NCBI RefSeq assembly: GCF_000473325.1
Contig: NZ_AXBI01000020.1
Location: 372,001-436,000, forward strand
Direction: 5' to 3'
Source: Leisingera caerulea DSM 24564
GTDB lineage: Bacteria > Pseudomonadota > Alphaproteobacteria > Rhodobacterales > Rhodobacteraceae
DNA: 64,000 nt
Of this stretch, positions 3,369-13,131 are shown one piece after another. The position numbers and the translations under genes were made by a program. The notes under the pieces are model-generated. The model searched no databases and was not told where the DNA came from. It saw nothing but the letters and a program-made list of their open reading frames with translations. Position 1 is the stretch's first letter, and each line of letters opens with the position of its first letter.

Positions 3369-4478
3369 TTACACCGCGAAGGAGATCTCTTCCTCGACCT
3401 CGTTGAGCCAGCGCTCTTCGCGCTCCGAGCGGATCGCGTTGAGCTCCCAGGCCACATCATAGGACCGGCAGCTGCGGCTGAGGTCTTTGTCCAGCACACG
3501 CACGGTCGTCCAGAGATTGAGAAGGTCTTCGGTTGCGAGGTTTTTGAGCTTCGTGTTCAGCTCCCGGAAGCTGCCGAAGCTCATATCCTGCCCGCCAAAG
3601 GCGGACAGCATCAGGTACCGGTCATCCGGACCGCCGAACTTCAGATCGCAAGCGGCGCTTTCACCGAGATCGAGCACGTTAAAACCGTCGCTCGTATAGG
3701 GCGCCATCGCCCGCTGCACCGCATCCGACAGGATTTCGGGCTCATCACGCATTGCGCGCCGCCAGCGCGTATCGAGCTGCGCGCTGAGATCCTGGCCGCC
3801 ATCGATATGACCGCTGCTGTCCCATTTGAAGTCCATCCCGATATCCCAGGACAGCATGCGGCCTGCATCTGCTTCCTGGGACTGGCGGATCATCAGATCC
3901 TTGATCATGCCGTCGCGGCTGACCTTTGGCAGGTTGTATTCGCCGGTCTCATGAAGCGTTTTCACAAATTCGCTGCGCTCGTCGACCTCTTCCATGTGCC
4001 GCAGGCCCAATTGAACCTGATTGCCGATCGACCCGCAGTCCGGCTGGGAAGCAGCCTGATCCAGATCGGGCGAACCGGCGCGATAGGTCTTCTGGGAGCG
4101 GCAGAAACTGACGAAGGACTGCCAGTCCATTTCGCGGATCTCAGCAAGCAGCTTGCGCTGTTCACGCGACGCGCCTTTCAGGCCCGATGCCTGCTGCAGG
4201 CATGAATCTGCCACAATGCGCCAGTTATCATTGTCGATGACCGCGATGCCATTGCGTCCCAGGTCCAGGTTTTCCTGCTCATTTGCCTTGTATCCCAAGG
4301 CGATCAGAACAGTGAACGACCGCGGAACCTCCCCTTCCCCTTCAAAGAACAGATGGTGCTTAAGCCCGCCCTCATGCAGGAACTGGCCTGTCCGCTGAAT
4401 ATCGCGGTAGCGAAGGGAGGGCGGCAGCGCCCCTGCTTCACGGGATTGATCAAGGGATGCGGGGGTGTGGGCGTTCAT
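3369..4478 (-). CDS. Hypothetical protein (369 residues)
   Basis: The frame is open from 4607, but the ATG at 4478 is preceded by GGAG at six-base spacing and begins a normal-looking protein (MNAHTPASLDQ). The body is soluble and charged. It includes YRDIQRTGQFLHEGGLKHHL near the N terminus and a C-terminal helical segment ending NEVEEEISFAV. No family is recognised and no signal peptide or membrane segment is seen. It is transcribed away from the tmRNA gene. Confidence 0.6.
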   Translation of the reverse strand: MNAHTPASLDQSREAGALPPSLRYRDIQRTGQFLHEGGLKHHLFFEGEGEVPRSFTVLIALGYKANEQENLDLGRNGIAVIDNDNWRIVADSCLQQASGLKGASREQRKLLAEIREMDWQSFVSFCRSQKTYRAGSPDLDQAASQPDCGSIGNQVQLGLRHMEEVDERSEFVKTLHETGEYNLPKVSRDGMIKDLMIRQSQEADAGRMLSWDIGMDFKWDSSGHIDGGQDLSAQLDTRWRRAMRDEPEILSDAVQRAMAPYTSDGFNVLDLGESAACDLKFGGPDDRYLMLSAFGGQDMSFGSFRELNTKLKNLATEDLLNLWTTVRVLDKDLSRSCRSYDVAWELNAIRSEREERWLNEVEEEISFAV

Positions 4479-4557
4479 GTTGCTCTCCAATCTCTTGCAC
4501 TTGCCTGCGCCTGCTGACCAGCAAGCTATGACACCAGGCTGAAAATGAGTCGTCATT

Positions 4558-4565
4558 TTTTCGCA
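4558..4565 (-). promoter_or_regulatory. TGCGAAAA motif
   Basis: The minus strand reads AATGCGAAAAAATGACG, about 80 bp before the ATG at 4478. Related but weaker copies (TTTTGCGAAATT at 4615-4626, TATGCGAATT at 4661-4670) lie between this gene and the tmRNA gene. Confidence 0.4.
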
Positions 4566-4692
4566 TTTCTGATTTCCGCATTGCACTGAAAGGCACCTCA
4601 GGGTCAAGCGGCTATTTTGCGAAATTCTTTATTTTTTCACTCTTGCGCCTCTCGTGAGAATATGCGAATTTCCTTCCTGTCAGCATGCTGAC

Positions 4693-4757
4693 TATGAGCA
4701 TAAACGCGCTCGGAATAGACGTTCAGGACTGGGGGGCGGTACCCCACAGCTCCACCA
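4693..4757 (+). ncRNA. tmRNA acceptor piece
   Basis: It ends with genome-encoded CCA at 4755-4757. The T arm is TGGGG (4730-4734), loop GGCGGTA (4735-4741) and CCCCA (4742-4746). The loop lacks the usual TTCRA sequence, which is odd. GACGTTCA (4718-4725) can form the P2 helix with TGGCGTT of the coding piece, with one bulged T. The 5' boundary is uncertain. Confidence 0.85.
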
Positions 4758-4758
4758 T

Positions 4759-4845
4759 ATCCAGACCAGTGAGGTCGGCCGCGGGAAAACAGTAGGACAC
4801 CCCAAGCCGTAAAGGAGCCTCAAGCCGAAGCAAGGGGGTCTGGAT
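4759..4845 (+). repeat. Inverted repeat closing the excised tmRNA loop
   Basis: ATCCAGACC (4759-4767) is perfectly complementary to GGTCTGGAT (4837-4845). It stacks onto the acceptor stem of the precursor and holds the two pieces together before processing. The interior of the loop shows no other feature. Confidence 0.85.
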
Positions 4846-4850
4846 TTGAT

Positions 4851-5040
4851 GGGGCTGAAACAGGATCGACTGGCGTTCAAAGGGGTAAGCTTTGCTTCGG
4901 TGAGGAACCACCGTTATCGGTCCAACGAGTACAACTGCAAACGCAAACCGTGCTCCCGCACTCGCCCTGGCTGCCTGAGGCAGCCGGCGCAAGCGGAACC
5001 TAAGCCCTGACGGATAGCACCGTCAGGCGGGGCCTCAGGG
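4851..5040 (+). ncRNA. tmRNA coding (mRNA-like) piece
   Basis: It starts GGGGCTGAAACAGGATCGAC, like other tmRNA 5' ends. It contains a small CGGTG/CACCG hairpin that fits pseudoknot 1, the tag codons, and helix GGCTGCC-TGA-GGCAGCC (4969-4985) with the stop codon in the loop. A strong hairpin CCTGACGG/CCGTCAGG follows near 5006-5027. The 3' end is approximate. Confidence 0.85.
4937..4978 (+). other. tmRNA proteolysis-tag reading frame
   Basis: GCA AAC GCA AAC CGT GCT CCC GCA CTC GCC CTG GCT GCC TGA encodes ANANRAPALALAA. The hydrophobic LAA end is the classic degron recognised by ClpXP. Alphaproteobacterial tags usually begin AND; here the third residue is Ala instead of Asp. Confidence 0.9.
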
Positions 5041-5118
5041 AGCCTGGCAACAGAATCCCTGGATACTCCCGCGACAATCCTCAACAAGAATATCCAGCCA
5101 CCGGCTGAACTCCACATT

Positions 5119-5733
5119 TTGAATACGAAGCACATACCAGAAAACAATGCTCCTCCGGTTTCTTTCCGGACCTTCCATGACCGGACTTTGGCGGTCTTCT
5201 CCCCCTCCCCTCTTCCACATCATGAGCCGGACTTCGTGTCTGGCTCCGGATCCGCCTATTGGGACATGGCGCAAGGCGTCATTCGCTGCTCGGATCATTG
5301 GGCCGGGCACAACGGCTGCACAGGCCAGGCCTCTTGTGTCTGGAGCTATTCCGGCATCATTGACCAGGGCGCCTGGGCTACGGGATATTGCGCCTATGGC
5401 GATTTCCATTCCCGGGTGGCGCTTCCGATCTTCCACGCCATAACCGCTGAAGACACAGCGGCGGCTGATCTGCTCCATTCCGCGGGAGGCGCCCTGCCCT
5501 ACCCGGATTGGCTTGCCTCTGGGCTCGATGTGCCCCCTTGGGCACAAAGGGTGTTCCCCGGCCCCGCGCTGATCCCGCCTGCGGCTCGCGCATTATTCCG
5601 CCAGACCCCTGGGCTGCGGCACGCGGTCAGCGCCGACCCAAACCGGATCGGCCGTATTCGCGAGGGCGCAGCGCGGATCAAAATCGGATCGAGGTTAAGC
5701 CTGCCTGAAGATCTTTCAGAGATGTCCACATAG
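5119..5733 (+). CDS. Hypothetical protein, probable TTG start
   Basis: The frame is open from about 5011 with no ATG or GTG, so the first usable codon is the TTG at 5119, giving 204 residues. The central part (residues about 40-80) is rich in Trp, Cys, Gly and His (YWDMAQGVIRCSDHWAGHNG, then CTGQASCVWSY) and looks like a small structured domain, perhaps metal-binding. No family is recognised. The opposite-strand frame at 5035-5547 is judged a shadow. Start and function are uncertain. Confidence 0.5.
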   Translation: MNTKHIPENNAPPVSFRTFHDRTLAVFSPSPLPHHEPDFVSGSGSAYWDMAQGVIRCSDHWAGHNGCTGQASCVWSYSGIIDQGAWATGYCAYGDFHSRVALPIFHAITAEDTAAADLLHSAGGALPYPDWLASGLDVPPWAQRVFPGPALIPPAARALFRQTPGLRHAVSADPNRIGRIREGAARIKIGSRLSLPEDLSEMST

Positions 5734-6379: not shown

Positions 6380-6790
6380 ATGCCCGAGCATTCGATCAGG
6401 CCCTGGGCGGCCTTCCTCATGGCAGTGAAGATCGAGACCGCCCCTGCCCCGCTCCTCTATCCGGCTATGCTTGAACTGCAGGAGATGCTGCAGCCGGTTA
6501 TTGCAAGCAACCGCAGGTTTCTCGCCTCATTGGCACCGGTCCTTCAGCTGAGCGGTGAAGCAGCAGATACCGAAGGTGTTCTGGAGACCGCCAGGATGGC
6601 TATCCGCTTTGAAGCGGCGGCAACGGATGCCGCCCGGAAGATTGCCAAGAGCAGCCCGCTGGATGAGACAGCCTTAAGAGAGGCCGCACAGGCCGCACAA
6701 TACCTCGGCCACCTGGCGCTGCTCTTGAAACAAGAGACGGCACAGGTCCAGCAGGATCATTCTGCAGCACACAGATTTGCGAATAACTGA
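6380..6790 (+). CDS. Hypothetical helical protein
   Basis: A 136-residue, mostly alpha-helical, Ala/Leu-rich protein (for example MLELQEMLQPVIASNRRFL) with no signal peptide or membrane span. No family is recognised. It ends just before the secreted nuclease gene, so co-transcription is likely. Confidence 0.5.
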   Translation: MPEHSIRPWAAFLMAVKIETAPAPLLYPAMLELQEMLQPVIASNRRFLASLAPVLQLSGEAADTEGVLETARMAIRFEAAATDAARKIAKSSPLDETALREAAQAAQYLGHLALLLKQETAQVQQDHSAAHRFANN

Positions 6791-6803
6791 AATGACGGAA
6801 GCC

Positions 6804-7868
6804 ATGACAACTCTGAACCGTATCTTCGGCGCAGCTATCGCCGCCACTCTTGCAACCGCGGCCGCACCTGCCCTCTCGGACACATATGTTGCCAGCTGGA
6901 ACGTCAAGCACCTGGGCTGGGACAATGGGAAGGACATCCGGGCAGTTGCCGAGGTTGCGGCGGCTTTTGATCTGATTGCGCTCCAGGAGGTCATGTCTCT
7001 TGACGGGCTTGAGAAGCTGGAATGGGAATTGGAACAGCGGACCGGTGCCGAGTGGCAAACCATGGCTTCCGAGGCCATCGGCCGGGGCAGCTATCGGGAG
7101 CACTATGCCTTCGCCTGGCGAACGGATGAGGTCGAATGGGTTGATGGTGCGGTCGTCTACATTGACGACCGTGACGCCTTCGCCCGGGAGCCCTTCTCAA
7201 TGCGCTTTGAAACCGCGGAGGGCTATCGCTTCGTCATGGCCTCTGCGCACCTGATCTACGGCGACAGTGTCGCAGAGCGCGAGCGGGAAGCCCGCGCACT
7301 CGACAGCTATCACGCCTGGCTCGAGGAGAGCTTCGCGGGCACTCCGATCTATATCGCGGGCGATTTCAATTTACCCCCTGTCAACGCGGCATGGAATGCC
7401 CTGGGCCAGGATACTGCGCCCTTGATCACCGAAGGCGCAACCACCCTTTCGCCTGTCAACGGTCGCTTCGCGAATCTCTACGACAACATCTGGGCACCGG
7501 CCGGTATCGAGATCCCCGTTGCCTCGGCGGGCATTTTCAACTTTCCGGCTGAGCTGGGCATCACCCATGAGATCGCGCGGGGAACGGTGTCAGACCATGC
7601 TCCCGTCTGGATGCTGATCGACCCGGATACCTATCATGTCGTGCTGTCTCCTCACGCAGCGTCTCATGATGTGTCGAGCGCCACGGGCGCCTATCAGTTT
7701 GATGAACCGCGAACCGGCGGAGATGTCCGGGGCAACCGCAACTCGATGATCTACCACATTGAGGGCTGCCCGGGTTTCGACAAGATGTCCGAGAAGAACA
7801 TTGTCCATTTCGCGAGTCAGGAGTTGGCCATTTCGGCCGGCTTCCGCATGGCGCGGAACTGCTCCTGA
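6804..7868 (+). CDS. Secreted endonuclease/exonuclease/phosphatase-family protein with C-terminal Cys/His motif
   Basis: A 354-residue protein. The start at 6804 has GGAAG upstream and yields a Sec signal peptide (MTTLNRIFGAAIAATLATAA...ALS). EEP-fold motifs in order are SWNVKHLGW, ALQEV (catalytic Glu), SAHLIYGDS, AGDFNLPP and VSDHAPV (the catalytic Asp-His pair). These enzymes cut DNA or phosphodiesters with Mg2+. The C-terminal 50 residues carry GNRNSMIYHIEGCPGFD followed by FASQELAISAGFRMARNC. This is a small domain found at the ends of some secreted nucleases, with a conserved Cys-His set. Export implies action on extracellular or periplasmic nucleic acid. Confidence 0.8.
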   Translation: MTTLNRIFGAAIAATLATAAAPALSDTYVASWNVKHLGWDNGKDIRAVAEVAAAFDLIALQEVMSLDGLEKLEWELEQRTGAEWQTMASEAIGRGSYREHYAFAWRTDEVEWVDGAVVYIDDRDAFAREPFSMRFETAEGYRFVMASAHLIYGDSVAEREREARALDSYHAWLEESFAGTPIYIAGDFNLPPVNAAWNALGQDTAPLITEGATTLSPVNGRFANLYDNIWAPAGIEIPVASAGIFNFPAELGITHEIARGTVSDHAPVWMLIDPDTYHVVLSPHAASHDVSSATGAYQFDEPRTGGDVRGNRNSMIYHIEGCPGFDKMSEKNIVHFASQELAISAGFRMARNCS

Positions 7869-7944: not shown

Positions 7945-9039
7945 GATTTACCGCGGTAAATCGGCGAGCATGATCAGGATGCCTCTGGGGTGCATTGCTG
8001 CAAGCGCTTTGCTTCAGCGGTCGATTTACCGCGGTAAATCGTCGGCCATCGTCAGGATGGCTCTCGAGGTCATTGCGGAAAGCCCTTCGCCTCTGCGGTC
8101 AGTTTACCGGGGTAAATCGGCCAGCAGCATCATGGTGCCGCCCGCAGGCTCACAATGGATGCGAGCATCTTGCATGACCGATTTACCGCGGTAAATCGGG
8201 TGATCATGACCAGGACTCCCTTGGGGTTCACTCTTGAAAGTCCTTCGCCTCTAGGGCCGATTTACCGGGGCAAATCGGCCGCCACGATCATGGTACCAAC
8301 CGCTGGTTCACTATGGATGCGTACGGCTGGCATGATCGATTTACCGCGGTAAATCGTCGGCCATCATCAGGATGGATCTGGGGGTCATTGCGGAAAGCCC
8401 TTCGCCGCTGCTGGTCGATTTACCGGGGTAAATCGGGTGACCGTGAACAGGATGCTTTTGGAGTTCATTGCCTGAAGCCGACTGCAGGGAATATGGCAGC
8501 GACCGCAGGCTTGCAAAGGATAACAACGGCGGGCAAACCCAATTTACCGCGGTAAATCGCCAAGCGCGATCAGGATGCCCGTGTAGTTATTGGTGCAAGT
8601 CGTTCTCTTCTGGCTCTTCTGCGGTTGGCTTGCCTGGGCAAAAAACCACTTCCAATACCATGGTGACGCACGCGGACCCGCTACATCTGCCAACGGTTCG
8701 CATGATCGATTTACCGCGGTAAATCGGGTGGTCCATCACCATGCGCTCAGGCACCAATGCCCGCGGTTCCGCGTGCGGAAGGTCGTTGCCATACTGCATC
8801 GATCACTTTGAGCGCAGGGGTTGCGATCCGTGTATCCCATCGATGACCGCCGGCAGGTTAGATCTGACCTTCGCAGGCGCAGGACGATGCACGCAGCCGC
8901 AGCATGGAAACCGCAGCGCATGATATCGGAAGGGCTCCCGGGTTCCCAGGAGCTGGCAACATGCTTGGCTGATCTCGTACCGTCTCTTCTCATGGCTTGC
9001 TCCATAGAGTGCTTAGAGCCTGATTTACCGCGGTTTCAA
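7945..9039. repeat. parS-like palindrome array with about 79-bp period
   Basis: Ten copies or near copies of GATTTACCGCGGTAAATC lie at 7945, 8023, 8101 (AG start, GGGG centre), 8180, 8259 (GGGGC), 8338, 8417 (GGGG), 8541 (A start), 8708 and 9022 (right half decayed). A badly decayed copy near 8626 (CTTGCCTGGGCAAAA) restores the spacing. Spacing is 78-79 bp for the first seven. The stretches between palindromes are themselves related and fall into two types: A, with ATCAGGATG and GAAAGCCCTTCGCC; and B, with ATCATGGT and GGTTCACTATGGATGCG. They alternate to give a 157-158-bp higher-order unit. In RepABC plasmids such palindromes are the RepB-bound centromere. No gene is supported across 7869-9053. 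Confidence 0.88.
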
Positions 9040-9053
9040 GAACGCGGTGATAC

Positions 9054-10247
9054 CTACGCAGCAGGCCGGACAAGACCGCCAGCAATCGCTTCTCCTCTTT
9101 CATAGTTTCTGAGCAAGGAGCGTAGATAGGCTTCAGGGCGTGCGATCTGAGCGATGTTGCGACCAAGGTAATTGAGCAGGAGGATCATCTTGGCTGGACC
9201 GAGGAGTTGTATGGCTGGCAGAACGGTCATCTGTCCAAGTCCAAGAAATCCAGAAAAATCCATTAATACCCTGGCGAGTTGGTGCTCGCTGTTTGGAGGT
9301 TCAGGGAAATACTCCCTGATGATCGAAGCATTGCTCCAGGCATTGGCGATCGATAGGCCCGTCTTCGAATGCTGAGGCCTATTATTTTTTTCTTTTGGTT
9401 CAGACTCTATGTGCCGGACAGTTTGACCGTCATCGCCGGTGGTTTTGTCCGGTGAAACCGCGGTTTGCCCTGAAGTTACGGAGGGGTAATCAGGCAGGCT
9501 AGCGGAAGCCGTGCCGATGTTGTCGGCCGCTGCTGAGCGCGGGGAGGGACCTGCGCCTGCAGGCTCAGTCTCCGGCCCGGGAACGGCCGCTTCGAGCGAC
9601 ACGATCTCCTCCTCGAGCTCGCGCATCTCCTGAGGGCAGGGCGCCTTGCGACGGAGCGTGCGGCGCAGGCGAACACGCATGTTCTCGATTGACTGGGGCA
9701 GGGGGGCGCCAACCGATGCAAAGGCGCGTGTAAGCGCCGCAAACCGCGCGCTGATCTCATTGCGGAGGTTGCGAAGGGCGAGGCGGCTGGCAACCTGTTC
9801 TTCATGCATATCGAGAAGCTCGTAGACGCGGTTGAGCAGAGGAGCGAGATCAATCCCGTATGCCGAAACGATCCGGCCCTCGCGGTCACGCTCTGGAAAG
9901 CGGCGGCCATTGGCGCTGAGCTTGCGGTTGATGAGACCGGCCGCTTCAAGGCGCGCTTCCCCACGGCGGAAGCGGCGCTCGTCCATGCCGCAGGCCCTGG
10001 TGAGGATCTCGGAGACGCTCATGAACGAGACATTCAATCCCATAGGATCCAGCGGTCCATGGGGCAGGACGGACAGGTGGGCCCGCAAGACCAGGATGTC
10101 CCTGTCATTCAATCCGAGGCGTTGCCGAAGCTCTGTGACCAGAGACAACAGCTCCCAACGGTCGAACTTGTGTCGACCGCCTTCATAAACCCGGCATACC
10201 TCTAAGGTTTGCCGGCGCGGCTGAGCCGCGGGCATTGATGTGTGCAT
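9054..10247 (-). CDS. repC: RepC replication initiator
   Basis: A 397-residue protein. The N-terminal half matches the RepC (RP-C) family: RWELLSLVTELRQRLGL, LPHGPLDPMGLNVSFMSV and the signature NGRRFPERDREGRIVSAYG. The middle is a helical segment and a variable linker. RepC initiates replication at an origin that lies inside repC in this plasmid class. It is encoded last in the operon, after a gap carrying the antisense RNA. A second possible ATG is at 10235; neither has a strong ribosome site, as expected for a gene held low by countertranscript control. Confidence 0.9.
   Translation of the reverse strand: MHTSMPAAQPRRQTLEVCRVYEGGRHKFDRWELLSLVTELRQRLGLNDRDILVLRAHLSVLPHGPLDPMGLNVSFMSVSEILTRACGMDERRFRRGEARLEAAGLINRKLSANGRRFPERDREGRIVSAYGIDLAPLLNRVYELLDMHEEQVASRLALRNLRNEISARFAALTRAFASVGAPLPQSIENMRVRLRRTLRRKAPCPQEMRELEEEIVSLEAAVPGPETEPAGAGPSPRSAAADNIGTASASLPDYPSVTSGQTAVSPDKTTGDDGQTVRHIESEPKEKNNRPQHSKTGLSIANAWSNASIIREYFPEPPNSEHQLARVLMDFSGFLGLGQMTVLPAIQLLGPAKMILLLNYLGRNIAQIARPEAYLRSLLRNYERGEAIAGGLVRPAA
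9377..9402. other. AT-rich stretch inside repC, candidate oriV
   Basis: CCTATTATTTTTTTCTTTTG stands out in otherwise GC-rich coding sequence. In RepABC plasmids the origin lies in an AT-rich part of repC, so this is the best candidate for the melting region. No DnaA boxes were identified by eye. Confidence 0.45.
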
Positions 10248-10441: not shown

Positions 10442-10459
10442 GATTTACCGCGGTAAATC
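10442..10459. repeat. parS-like palindrome between repB and repC
   Basis: A perfect GATTTACCGCGGTAAATC, 26 bp past the repB stop and upstream of repC. This is a second location for the same site that makes up the array beyond repC. It could let RepB binding influence repC expression. Confidence 0.85.
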
Positions 10460-10485: not shown

Positions 10486-11457
10486 TTATGCTCCTCCTTT
10501 ACTCTGACTTTCTTCGTGTTCCCTGATCACCGCATCGATGCGTTCAGCTAGACGATCGAGAAGGGCAGGGGGGGTGGACTTCTTGGTCTTGATCACAATC
10601 TGATTGTCCTTGCGGACCGTTGTGACGTTCCCACCCATGTAGGCGCGCTGTGCATCCGTCTTAGCGGGCTTGGCTGGCGCCTTACGCTTGCCGCCAGCCT
10701 GAACCGATTTCAGCAGGTTTTGGAACCGCTCAACACTGTCCTCGATCTCGATATCGATGAGCGACAGCGCCGCGGACGGTGTGATCTTGTGGGTTTCCAT
10801 CCCGGTGATCAGCTTGTCCCACTGGCGGCGTCCGACACCCCTGGCGGGACCGATGGCGACAACCAGGTCTTCCCCTAGGGTGGTGTATGCCTTGACCATA
10901 AAGTTGATGAGCGTGCGCGAAACATTGAGGAACTCCGCGATGTCCTTCTGCTCATAGCCAGCCTCTAATCCCTGGGCCGCAGCGCGGGCGCGCTCGATGT
11001 AGCTGGTCTCAAGACGGGCGGAATTCTCGATGCCCTGGGCAACGAAGGCTTCGCGGTCGTCCATCTTGGACACGAAGGCCTTGATGCGAGGCATCCCCAG
11101 ACGCCGCGTGGCTGCGAGACGCCGACGCCCTACGACGATCTCATAGGGCTGATCACCGGTGATGGCGCGGACCAGGATAGGGATCTGCTGACCATTCTCC
11201 CGTATGCTGTCCATCAGGCTTTGGAGGTCTTCATTGATGTCGATGCGATCGCGGATCTTGCTGTCGGCGATCTGGTTGACGGCAATCTCCTGATATGTCC
11301 GGTCGGCACCGCCCTGGGTCGCCGCTTTGATGTACTTGTCGCTGGCGGCACCGCCCTTGATGATCGGTTTCCGGCGCGGAGCTATCGGCGCCCGGCTGGT
11401 TCCGGTTTCGGTTTTTTCATCTGGAGTCTTGGGTGCATCGAATACTGGTCGTGCCAT
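10486..11457 (-). CDS. repB: RepB (ParB-family) centromere-binding protein
   Basis: A 323-residue protein. The ParB N-terminal domain is clear: ILVRAITGDQPYEIVVGRRR (GRRR in place of the usual GERR), then MPRIKAFVSKMDDREA and IENSARLETSYIERA. A helix-turn-helix region follows (YEQKDIAEFLNVSRTLINF). It should bind the GATTTACCGCGGTAAATC sites and partner RepA in segregation. The start overlaps the repA stop as ATGA at 11454-11459, so the two are translationally coupled. Confidence 0.9.
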   Translation of the reverse strand: MARPVFDAPKTPDEKTETGTSRAPIAPRRKPIIKGGAASDKYIKAATQGGADRTYQEIAVNQIADSKIRDRIDINEDLQSLMDSIRENGQQIPILVRAITGDQPYEIVVGRRRLAATRRLGMPRIKAFVSKMDDREAFVAQGIENSARLETSYIERARAAAQGLEAGYEQKDIAEFLNVSRTLINFMVKAYTTLGEDLVVAIGPARGVGRRQWDKLITGMETHKITPSAALSLIDIEIEDSVERFQNLLKSVQAGGKRKAPAKPAKTDAQRAYMGGNVTTVRKDNQIVIKTKKSTPPALLDRLAERIDAVIREHEESQSKGGA

Positions 11458-12674
11458 CAGGAGACCTCATTTTTGTCGGCAATCCGCCCACGGCTGATCA
11501 TGACCTCTTCCTCGATCTCCATGGCGATCCCGTGCAGGCTCTCAAGGATCCTGTCGTAGGTCTTCCGGGTGAAGCTGGAAGGGTCAACCTCGAGCAGGGG
11601 GTTCATCGTGTTCCCGGCATCGGCAATCGCCGTCGATGCGAGGAAGTCCATGTTGAGCATGGATGTCCCCAGCGTGTTGCGCAGGAAGGATGCCAGTCCG
11701 AGCTGAGCCGGGTCGCTCGGAGAATATCGGGTCAGCAGGATGCGGATGAAGTCGAAACGCTTGTTCGGATCAACCTCCTCGATGCTCCGAAGGGTGCTGG
11801 AGGCAAGGTCGAGGAACTTCACAAGGCTGACCACGTCCAGCATGCCCGCCGAGAGCGGGATCAGCATGGAGTTGGACGCATAGAGCGCCGCGATCACGCA
11901 GAAACTCATATGAGGCGGGGTGTCGAAGATCACCACGTCATAGGCATCCTCGACAAGGCTCAGGGCTTCCGAGATCCGCGAGTAGAAGGGAACGCCTTGA
12001 GCCGCCGCGCTCGCGGTCTCGTACTCGAACTCGGTCAAGGCGATCGAGCCCGGGATGATGTCGATGTTCGGGAAGTAGGTCGCCTGGATTGCATCGGTGA
12101 TCGGCACGCGCAACTCGCCGTCACCCTCTTCCTCGTAGCGCAGGACGTCATAGATCGAGGGCAGGCCGTCGAGGTCGGCCTGAATGTCGAAGAGGTCCGA
12201 GCAGCTCGCTTGCGGATCGAGGTCGACCACAAGCACCTTGAAGCCTCGGACGGCCAGAAACTGTGACAGGTTTGCGGCGGTGGAGGTCTTGGAGACCCCG
12301 CCTTTCAGGTTGTAAATCAATAGCTTAGAGGTGTGTTCGCCCTCAAGCTTGCCCGGAAACATCTCGGGCGTGATCTTCCCGGCCTCGTAGAGGCGGGCCT
12401 GAATCTCGTGGATCTCATCCAGCGAGAAGGTGCGCCGGTTGCCGGGCTCCATGATACCCTCCGGCAACCCCTCGATTGTTTTGAGGTGGTGCCTTAGAGT
12501 GTTGTAATTCATGCGGAAGGCGAGGTCGGCCATCTCGCGAATCGTGAAACGGCGCAGGCCCTTTTCCGATTTGCGCGTGTCGGGCGCGAGAAGACGGCTC
12601 AACTGCGTCTTCAGGGCGACATCCAGCGCTTCACTGAACGAATTCAGTGTTTCAGAGCCCAGTAGGTCTCTCAT
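11457..12674 (-). CDS. repA: RepA (ParA-family) partition ATPase
   Basis: A 405-residue protein from the ATG at 12674, which has AGGA nine bases upstream; an in-frame ATG at 12818 has no ribosome site and would exceed the usual family length. The deviant Walker A at about residues 124-131 is KGGVSKTS. It keeps the ParA signature lysine but has Ser where Gly is usual. Other motifs are VLVVDLDPQASCSDLF (Walker A') and YDVVIFDTPPHMSF (Walker B). An N-terminal winged-helix-like part (RRFTIREMADLAF...) fits the autorepressor role of RepA on the repABC promoter. Confidence 0.9.
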   Translation of the reverse strand: MRDLLGSETLNSFSEALDVALKTQLSRLLAPDTRKSEKGLRRFTIREMADLAFRMNYNTLRHHLKTIEGLPEGIMEPGNRRTFSLDEIHEIQARLYEAGKITPEMFPGKLEGEHTSKLLIYNLKGGVSKTSTAANLSQFLAVRGFKVLVVDLDPQASCSDLFDIQADLDGLPSIYDVLRYEEEGDGELRVPITDAIQATYFPNIDIIPGSIALTEFEYETASAAAQGVPFYSRISEALSLVEDAYDVVIFDTPPHMSFCVIAALYASNSMLIPLSAGMLDVVSLVKFLDLASSTLRSIEEVDPNKRFDFIRILLTRYSPSDPAQLGLASFLRNTLGTSMLNMDFLASTAIADAGNTMNPLLEVDPSSFTRKTYDRILESLHGIAMEIEEEVMISRGRIADKNEVS

Positions 12675-13131
12675 GCTGCTCAATCCTCGGTTATTCTTTT
12701 GCTTGGACCCTACATCAATAAAACCGCGTGGGTCTATAGAAAGCTGACGAGAATAGGGAATATCGGCGAAGGCATTATCCAGTGATGAACGGGCCGCGCC
12801 TTGGTAATTTGTTTTCATTCAATGACTTATCGGCATCGCAGCCCTGAAACGGCAGGGACTGAATTGCCTGGAATTGGCCCGCCTCAGGGGGCATCGACGC
12901 AATTCAGCCTGCAAAATCAAGGCATGTCGATTCTTGGCGGACCATTAAATGCCCTGCAAGAAGCGGCGTGACCCGGAGAGGTTGAGAAGATGATTCCTGC
13001 CACCCGCGGACCATGACTGCCAACCAGGAAGGGGCGCTGCCGGGCGCCCCTTTTACCGGTGCAGACGCGGGGCGTCATTCAACGTCTGGTCATTGCGCCG
13101 TGGAGGGGCAGGGGCATCAGGATCCTCAGGA
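12675..13131. promoter_or_regulatory. repA upstream region and terminator
   Basis: About 450 bp without a supported gene. It should contain the repABC promoter, although no convincing -35/-10 was picked out. A hairpin AAGGGGCGC/GCGCCCCTT (13029-13052) followed by TTTT sits near the end of the neighbouring minus-strand gene. Confidence 0.35.
13029..13054. terminator. Hairpin terminator
   Basis: A 9-bp perfect stem with loop TGCCGG and four T residues on the plus strand. The minus-strand side has a poorer T run, so it probably acts on both strands only weakly. Confidence 0.55.

Follow-up and report, generated by a model that had tools for sequence, protein, structure and literature searches.

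A second, divergent two-piece tmRNA gene accompanied by its own smpB and a tRNA set on a repABC replicon of Leisingera caerulea DSM 24564

Introduction

Some genomes possess a second or third copy of ssrA, the gene encoding transfer-messenger RNA (tmRNA), sometimes on a plasmid, and smpB is described as chromosomal except for two copies on plasmid pOAD2 (passages of PMC4131195). According to parts of PMC7162821, tmRNA and SmpB are also present in huge phages, and analogous suites are found in some large putative plasmids. Excerpts of the work on pMP7017 also name pCPAA3 of Curtobacterium as a tmRNA plasmid (PMC10832533), and the megaplasmid pMPPla107 exhibits 38 tRNA loci, with no occurrence of smpB in the available portions of the text (PMC4105467). 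Here, we describe an ssrA gene of Leisingera (formerly Phaeobacter) caerulea DSM 24564, which encodes a circularly permuted, two-piece tmRNA and lies in the vicinity of a repABC module, with about 4 kb separating it from repC. The window, i.e., the whole stretch of DNA that was analysed, comprises 64,000 nucleotides (C5:372001-436000, forward strand) of the 564,457-bp scaffold C5. Together with a second smpB and a tRNA set covering the 20 amino acids on the same scaffold, this gene probably forms a megaplasmid-borne, supplementary translation-maintenance kit, which is added to the host's own set.

Results

Identity and parts of the C5 ssrA gene

The identity and the intactness of C5 ssrA are firm. 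The alpha_tmRNA model (RF01849) matches the window at 4639-5065 (+) with 233.9 bits (gathering threshold 50, E 1.4e-66) over 355 of 355 model positions, the tmRNA_permuted model (RF04321) matches at 4696-4978 with 141.9 bits (cut-off 47), and ARAGORN calls a permuted tmRNA at 4662-5069 (+) with the tag ANANRAPALALAA*. In the gene, the acceptor end precedes the coding piece and is separated from it by an intervening segment, and 34 of the 35 modelled RF01849 pairs are standard, the last one being a gap. A first-pass annotation, made from the sequence alone, had described a permuted two-piece tmRNA gene beside a repABC module; this observation is confirmed by the three matches above and by Pfam matches to the repABC proteins, and the structural parts that it named are all present. 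The interval that it gave, 4679-5040, falls inside the called gene and is slightly short at both ends. The parts of the gene are as follows.

4662..5069 (Rfam 4639-5065), + strand: ssrA, circularly permuted two-piece tmRNA (ARAGORN, Rfam)
4696..4757, + strand: acceptor piece, comprising the long-stem 5' strand, T stem-loop, acceptor 3' strand, discriminator A and CCA (5' limit predicted)
4730-4734/4742-4746, + strand: T stem
4735..4741, + strand: T loop GGCGGTA
4747-4753, + strand: acceptor 3' strand (read from sequence)
4754, + strand: discriminator A
4755-4757, + strand: encoded CCA
4758..4850, + strand: intervening segment of 93 nt, between acceptor and coding pieces
4851..5069, + strand: coding piece, comprising the acceptor 5' strand, D-loop-like segment, long-stem 3' strand, tag frame and 3' pseudoknot region
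4851-4857, + strand: acceptor 5' strand GGGGCTG, with a G-U third pair
4937-4975, + strand: tag frame ANANRAPALALAA, with the stop TGA at 4976-4978 (ARAGORN)

Comparison with the chromosomal ssrA

The genome comprises 5,344,419 bases in 9 contigs, of which C7, the DnaA chromosome, exhibits its own ssrA (302.5 bits, tag ANDNRAPVALAA). As the C7 gene scores higher, C5 ssrA is a second tmRNA gene and cannot be the only copy; smpB is likewise present on C7 too. The first-pass annotation had left open whether this was a second tmRNA, with a tag of its own, or an only copy that would make the replicon essential, and the covariance-model search of the window and the genome decided for the former. Over the core, i.e., the two pieces without the intervening segment, C5 and C7 ssrA are 71.6% identical. 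Among the 35 RF01849 pairs, 23 are the same and 9 are changed on both sides with the pairing kept, while the remaining three correspond to a one-sided change, a pair that is non-standard in C7 and standard in C5, and a gap. The nine two-sided changes indicate long selection on the structure and, together with the core identity, rule out a recent duplicate, which an identical chromosomal copy would have indicated. Judged from this alignment, C5 ssrA is an old, constrained copy. The T loop GGCGGTA had been considered unusual; this is rejected, as it is the RF01849 consensus and is also present in C7 ssrA. In a tmRNA tree of 39 rows, from which 10 rows were dropped because their two pieces could not be cut by rule, C5 ssrA falls in an unresolved fork.

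Tag sequence

The third tag residue was rightly singled out in the first-pass annotation, whose interpretation is, as a whole, partly supported. This residue is Asp in 33 of the 34 tags read by ARAGORN at the ssrA loci of the L. caerulea genome and its relatives, whereas it is Ala in the C5 tag ANANRAPALALAA (ANAN in place of ANDN). The 34 tags are those of fetched loci, mostly the best-scoring ones; L005 and L036, for which ARAGORN made no call, are left out, as are the contigs of gut and termite genomes, whose tags mostly begin with AANDN and align differently. Other residues than Asp are found in a second ssrA of the relative G432 (Thr, by eye), in phages DSS3_MAL1 and MD18 (Thr), whose ssrA genes are near-identical (96.6% over the core), and in phage RpAliso (Glu). 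Asp is kept in Sinorhizobium phage Phosso (by eye), in the second copy of the relative G244 and in five of the six IMG/VR contigs with a shared T arm (L047-L049, L051, L052; no ARAGORN call for L050), which argues against a general rule for extra or viral copies. The LAA end of the tag is kept in the C5 copy.

A second smpB on C5

The genome exhibits two smpB genes matching PF01668, one on C7 (184.6 bits) and one at C5:199551-199982 (180.3 bits, cut-off 27), without stops. Over 147 aligned positions, 102 are identical between the two proteins (69%). A tree of 70 rows was built from both of them, 39 of the other 119 proteins listed and 29 SmpB loci from other genomes; in it, C5 SmpB falls within a group of 12 rows with a support of 95/78, just below the tool's mark for firm support. 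This group contains none of the 29 loci of other genomes, nor C7 SmpB. Two rare genes lie near C5 smpB, at C5:196398-197249 (12 proteins found) and at C5:203827-205257 (23 found), and homologues of both are on contigs equal in size to those of members of the SmpB group, namely 535,398 bp (Paracoccus sp. ME4), 40,706 bp, 35,467 bp (Roseivivax halodurans JCM 10272) and 8,888 bp. These are presumably the same contigs. Epibacterium sp. DP7N7-1 also has homologues of both rare genes, on a contig of 519,115 bp. A scan of the viral contigs with C5 SmpB found no relative. The C5 tmRNA would presumably work with the C5 SmpB and not with that of C7.

The tRNA set of C5

ARAGORN identifies 35 tRNAs on C5, covering the 20 amino acids by anticodon, of which 31 are clustered within C5:246645-254725, about 122 kb away from ssrA. 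The CCA end is encoded in 34 of the 35; the exception, a His(ATG) call within the cluster, is doubtful. On the C7 and C8 stretches fetched around RF00005 matches, 47 tRNAs were called, and they share 29 of the 33 anticodon types of C5. The best identity between a C5 tRNA and a chromosomal tRNA with the same anticodon ranges from 66% to 96%, being 66-87% for 29 of the 31 tRNAs that have such a counterpart, and 93% and 96% for the other two. No Ile, Tyr or Ala(TGC) tRNA is among the calls on the C7 and C8 stretches; rRNA operons, within which the Ile and Ala(TGC) tRNAs are usually located, were not searched for. A tyrosine-tRNA pattern is uninformative, since it matches neither the L. caerulea genome nor any of the 21 genomes of the genus. 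Neither of the two Met tRNAs of C5 exhibits clear initiator features by eye. Based on the co-location on one replicon and on the presence of the same set on other large plasmids (see below), the sequence data support well that C5 ssrA is part of a translation kit.

Distribution in relatives, plasmids and phages

Within the genus, 20 of the 21 genomes exhibit an ssrA match, and only L. caerulea exhibits a second full-length one, G009 having a fragment of 159 bases. In the family sample of 395 genomes, scanned with stricter filters by which weak matches can be lost, ssrA is matched in 387 genomes, seven of which have two matches. In three of the seven (L. caerulea, G432 and G244), the second match covers nearly the full length; the other four second matches are fragments of 21.8-63.1 bits. 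The two ssrA genes of G244 are 6 kb apart with the same tag (one reading at a relaxed threshold), which looks like an integration duplicate. The second, divergent ssrA of G432 (G432:C5:51723-52172, L040) has the tag ANTNAAPVALAA by eye, and G432 exhibits a single SmpB match. C5 SmpB finds matches in 391 of the 395 genomes, with more than one only in L. caerulea and in G138, a draft of 870 contigs. In G009, G298, G033 and G228, an ssrA fragment (L042, L044, L045 and L046) is located some 1-7 kb away from the intact chromosomal gene and resembles the remains left by islands integrating into ssrA; the distance is 1.5 Mb for a fifth fragment (L043, G281). The ssrA coding piece also finds matches of 76-77% identity in five Paracoccus records of 1.46-2.24 Mb that were submitted as plasmids. 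The exact 32-base T-arm pattern is present in 6 viral contigs and 99 stretches of genome contigs. A genus of the Rhodobacteraceae is named in none of the 80 titles among the T-arm matches listed, most giving only Alphaproteobacteria, proteobacterium or Rickettsiales, which says little on the origin.

A tblastn search with C5 SmpB gave 65 plasmid records, all with less than 60% identity, among which nine were chosen as not resembling mislabelled chromosomes. The standard tmRNA model is over the cut-off in four of eight plasmids (pMPPla107, Pseudomonas FeN3W, P. silesiensis pPL1 and Priestia p2_CACC119), and the permuted model in three of seven replicons (five plasmids and two phages), namely the Variovorax plasmid and both phages. 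On the Sphingomonas plasmid neither form was found; on the Sulfurovum and Acinetobacter plasmids the standard form, the only one searched for, was not found. The tRNA counts obtained with ARAGORN are 49 for pMPPla107, 41 for FeN3W, 18 for pPL1, 40 for Variovorax and 41 for Priestia, from pieces of at most 20 kb chosen around weak tRNA-like matches. With smpB, ssrA and tRNA genes together on five of the eight other plasmids, the kit recurs. The gene order of the Priestia plasmid, rnr-smpB-ssrA, looks chromosomal. Phage DSS3_MAL1 exhibits a GOLLD RNA (L282 925-1388, 160.5 bits) beside its ssrA and tRNAs.

The repABC replicon

The replication module and the palindromes in the window are as follows.

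7947..8723, no strand assigned: eight partition-site-like palindromes TTTACCGCGGTAAA (6 exact, 2 with one mismatch), between ssrA and repC
9054..10247, - strand: repC, replication initiator (Pfam RP-C N-terminal, 1.5e-31)
10444-10457: ninth palindrome TTTACCGCGGTAAA, exact, between repC and repB
10486..11457, - strand: repB, ParB-like partition protein (Pfam ParB N-terminal, 6.2e-14)
11457..12818, - strand: repA, ParA-like ATPase (Pfam AAA_31, 8e-34)

The nine matches to TTTACCGCGGTAAA compare with 0.00 expected by chance. Seven of them are exact, and the 564-kb replicon contains no other exact copy. The relevant section of the published annotation assigns repC to the RepC-11 type, gives such palindromes the role of a partition anchor, lists no VirB4 or VirD4 for the 564-kb scaffold and does not mention a tmRNA or smpB on it (PMC3910702). 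Possible signs of mobility on C5 are repABC itself and one match to a DotH/IcmK-type secretion protein.

Neighbouring genes and RNA families

Genes of C5 were called by a simple script, giving 538 frames; 25 of these cross stretch borders, and among the others 466 are 110 residues or longer. Three protein sets (145, 145 and 56), i.e., 346 of the 466 frames, were scanned. As the families from the two sets of 145 proteins are the best 25 of 64 and the best 25 of 89, absence there means little. The tRNA array contains a gene for a cyclic-phosphate processing receiver (cRec) and is followed by HNH (weak), YqeY and R2K ATP-grasp genes, and then by nucleotidyltransferase-like and Sir2 genes. Two IrrE-type peptidases, an RNase H and, at C5:190011-191054, TrpRS II are encoded near smpB, and a GluRS-like gene is the neighbour of two tRNA-Glu genes. 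The 56 chosen proteins (L163-L171) gave one RNA_lig_T4_1 match (7.9e-30) and one tRNA-synt_2b match. Searches of solved structures did not find the RNA ligase or the class II synthetase gene, two candidates being a DNA polymerase IV and a PIF1 helicase. According to parts of PMC7824862, cRec domains are associated with conflict systems linked to cyclic phosphates and NAD, and R2K proteins are predicted peptide ligases of jumbo phages.

The families listed for C5 also comprise ribonucleotide reductase, thymidylate synthase, DNA ligase, primase and clamp loader, as well as a ter cluster, Csy3, the DotH/IcmK secretion protein and flagellar export genes. Capsid, portal and terminase are not among the families listed (best 25 of 64 and best 25 of 89; not every gene scanned). 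Matches to models of the defence proteins GajB, DrmD and AbiEii are observed. The genes flanking ssrA in the window exhibit few matches, among which an Exo_endo_phos gene at 6777-7868; the frame at 517-1260 matches a phage deoxyribonucleoside 5' monophosphate phosphatase (phrog_318, 1.5e-41). In four C5 stretches (80,000 bases), the only RNA family other than tRNA is a SAM-I/IV riboswitch at C5:186316-186439 (L163 6316-6439; 48.7 bits, gathering threshold 41.1).

Discussion

The second smpB and the tRNA set covering the 20 amino acids on C5, both located outside the window, change the likeliest purpose of its ssrA. In the mechanism that we propose, the C5 transcript would be cut by tRNA-processing enzymes, which are expected, by analogy with known permuted tmRNAs, to remove the intervening segment, and the two pieces would stay paired. 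Alanine would be loaded onto the tmRNA, whose third acceptor pair is G-U, and SmpB and EF-Tu would carry it to ribosomes stalled without a stop codon, where the tag ANANRAPALALAA would be added. The whole kit, comprising the tRNAs, the tRNA-charging and RNA-repair genes, the tmRNA and SmpB, could sustain translation when tRNAs or mRNAs are cleaved or when the host supply is short, to the benefit of the replicon. From the neighbouring families and from a suggestion made for tRNA arrays in passages of PMC12803027 and PMC7824862, we infer that the kit may guard against cut tRNAs and mRNAs.

Several observations weigh against such a kit. The distance between ssrA and smpB on C5 is about 177 kb, unlike the adjacent pairs of the five other plasmids. 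No sigma-70-type promoter was matched in the window at 4400-5300 (0.4 expected), nor a plus-strand terminator in the same scan; alphaproteobacterial promoters are a poor fit to the sigma-70 consensus. Expression, cleavage into two pieces and charging of the C5 tmRNA are predicted from its sequence. RNA repair is suggested by family matches, with the putative RNA ligase and class II synthetase unplaced among the genes; for the candidate at C5:196398-197249, the 12 listed homologues exhibit no Pfam domain and no solved relative was found. A housekeeping share may still fall to C5 through its Ile, Tyr and Ala(TGC) tRNAs. C5 is presumably a free megaplasmid, its circularity and independence being unproved according to the relevant section of PMC3910702.

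Among the readings offered in the same section, dating from 2013, is 'outsourcing', in which C5 would be a chromid or an integrated plasmid to which essential translation genes had moved from the chromosome; we consider this unlikely. The Ile, Tyr and Ala(TGC) tRNAs on C5, absent from the 47 calls on C7 and C8, would fit it, as would the G+C content of the fetched C7 and C8 stretches (61.2%), which is close to that of C5 (60.4%), and the rRNA and tRNA genes on a 575-kb possible chromid of another Leisingera genome (part of PMC12424358). Nevertheless, most anticodon types of C5 (29 of 33) recur on C7 and C8, C7 has its own ssrA and smpB, and all but two of the 31 comparable tRNAs are only 66-87% identical to their counterparts. 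The published G+C content is 60% for the scaffold and 64% for two other large scaffolds (PMC3910702, in part), and the tRNAs that seem missing from the chromosome are partly those of rRNA operons, which were not searched for, in scaffolds that contain gap runs of N. As the tRNA cluster is mostly an added, divergent set, it is poor evidence for C5 (scaffold 2 of the published genome) being a chromosome, which changes the published reading. It is quite unlikely that the tRNAs and the tmRNA serve only a differing codon usage of the replicon, as argued in passages on pMP7017 with its 20 tRNA genes and tmRNA (PMC10832533). Codon usage on C5 and on the chromosome is nearly equal, with a G+C content at third codon positions of 0.727 for the 418 called genes of C5 and of 0.742 for 41 long frames of the chromosomal stretches, and a largest shift of 0.10 in any codon's share. 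The C5 set is also close to one tRNA per needed anticodon, rare codons not being targeted, and the tmRNA and SmpB would be left unaccounted for.

A roleless leftover of a phage or an island using ssrA as integration site is very unlikely, even though ssrA is a known island target (passages of PMC4131195), fragments of it are found in related genomes and a divergent ssrA is present in three phages that infect Phaeobacter or Ruegeria or are near-identical to such phages: the C5 gene is full length, with helices kept through nine two-sided changes, an open tag followed by a stop and an encoded CCA, and an intact second smpB is present on the same scaffold. It is improbable, too, that the C5 tmRNA and SmpB compete with the host pair, the Asp-to-Ala change at tag residue 3 weakening adaptor-assisted degradation. 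The rarity of residues other than Asp, found in C5, the second copy of G432 and the three Phaeobacter/Ruegeria-type phages, speaks for it, but two of these phages are near-identical, and Asp is kept in the second copy of G244, in five viral contigs and in Phosso. Moreover, that an adaptor needs residue 3 in these bacteria is a guess, as is a weaker hand-over of ANANRAPALALAA-tagged proteins to ClpXP, and the LAA end is kept.

The supplementary kit is the reading that we favour. Beyond it, a lineage of Rhodobacterales replicons of about 0.5 Mb could possess a private translation protection, comprising tRNAs for the 20 amino acids, repair and charging enzymes, a divergent SmpB-tmRNA pair and an altered tag, against host defences or the toxins of rivals, with gamma- and betaproteobacterial megaplasmids having converged on the kit or sharing it; this extension is possible but tentative. 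Ribosome rescue is usually seen as a one-copy housekeeping function, and the C5 pair with its tRNA set suggests that mobile elements carry translation insurance. With its two pairs, the strain also offers a natural system for asking whether each SmpB is matched to a particular tmRNA and whether proteins with a plasmid tag take a different route.

Comparison with known systems

The chromosomal alphaproteobacterial ssrA (RF01849) shares with the C5 copy the gene order, the helices, the T loop, the encoded CCA, the G-U third acceptor pair and the LAA end. In contrast, the C5 copy is an additional one on a repABC replicon, with 71.6% core identity, ANAN instead of ANDN and a longer intervening segment. 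Plasmid pMP7017 of Bifidobacterium breve resembles C5 in its tRNA array (20 genes) and its highly transcribed tmRNA, which is, however, single-chain; its 17 highly transcribed tRNA genes correspond to 12 amino acids, and SmpB has no occurrence in the available text (PMC10832533). C5 differs by its two-piece tmRNA, its own SmpB and its coverage of the 20 amino acids. Closer in content are pMPPla107, FeN3W, pPL1 and plasmid 2 of Variovorax SRS16, which carry many tRNAs together with ssrA and smpB, the tmRNA of the latter being permuted as on C5. Their ssrA and smpB are less than 1 kb apart, versus 177 kb on C5.

Huge phages share translation genes, tRNAs, tmRNA, SmpB, cRec and R2K domains and RNA-repair families with C5 (parts of PMC7162821 and PMC7824862), whereas C5 exhibits repABC and the DotH/IcmK-type secretion match. 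The tRNA array units of mycobacteria are dense arrays on plasmids and phages, some with a tmRNA, for which an antidefence role has been suggested (passages of PMC5966550 and PMC12803027). The C5 array, a dense cluster additional to the chromosomal set, resembles such a unit, yet it is alphaproteobacterial, with a permuted tmRNA about 122 kb outside the array and a second smpB. Among the matches listed from the open-licence PubMed Central literature, neither a title nor an abstract deals with a plasmid-borne two-piece tmRNA that is accompanied by an SmpB of its own. Plasmid tmRNAs and tRNA arrays are already known, and what sets C5 apart is the two-piece tmRNA accompanied by its own SmpB.
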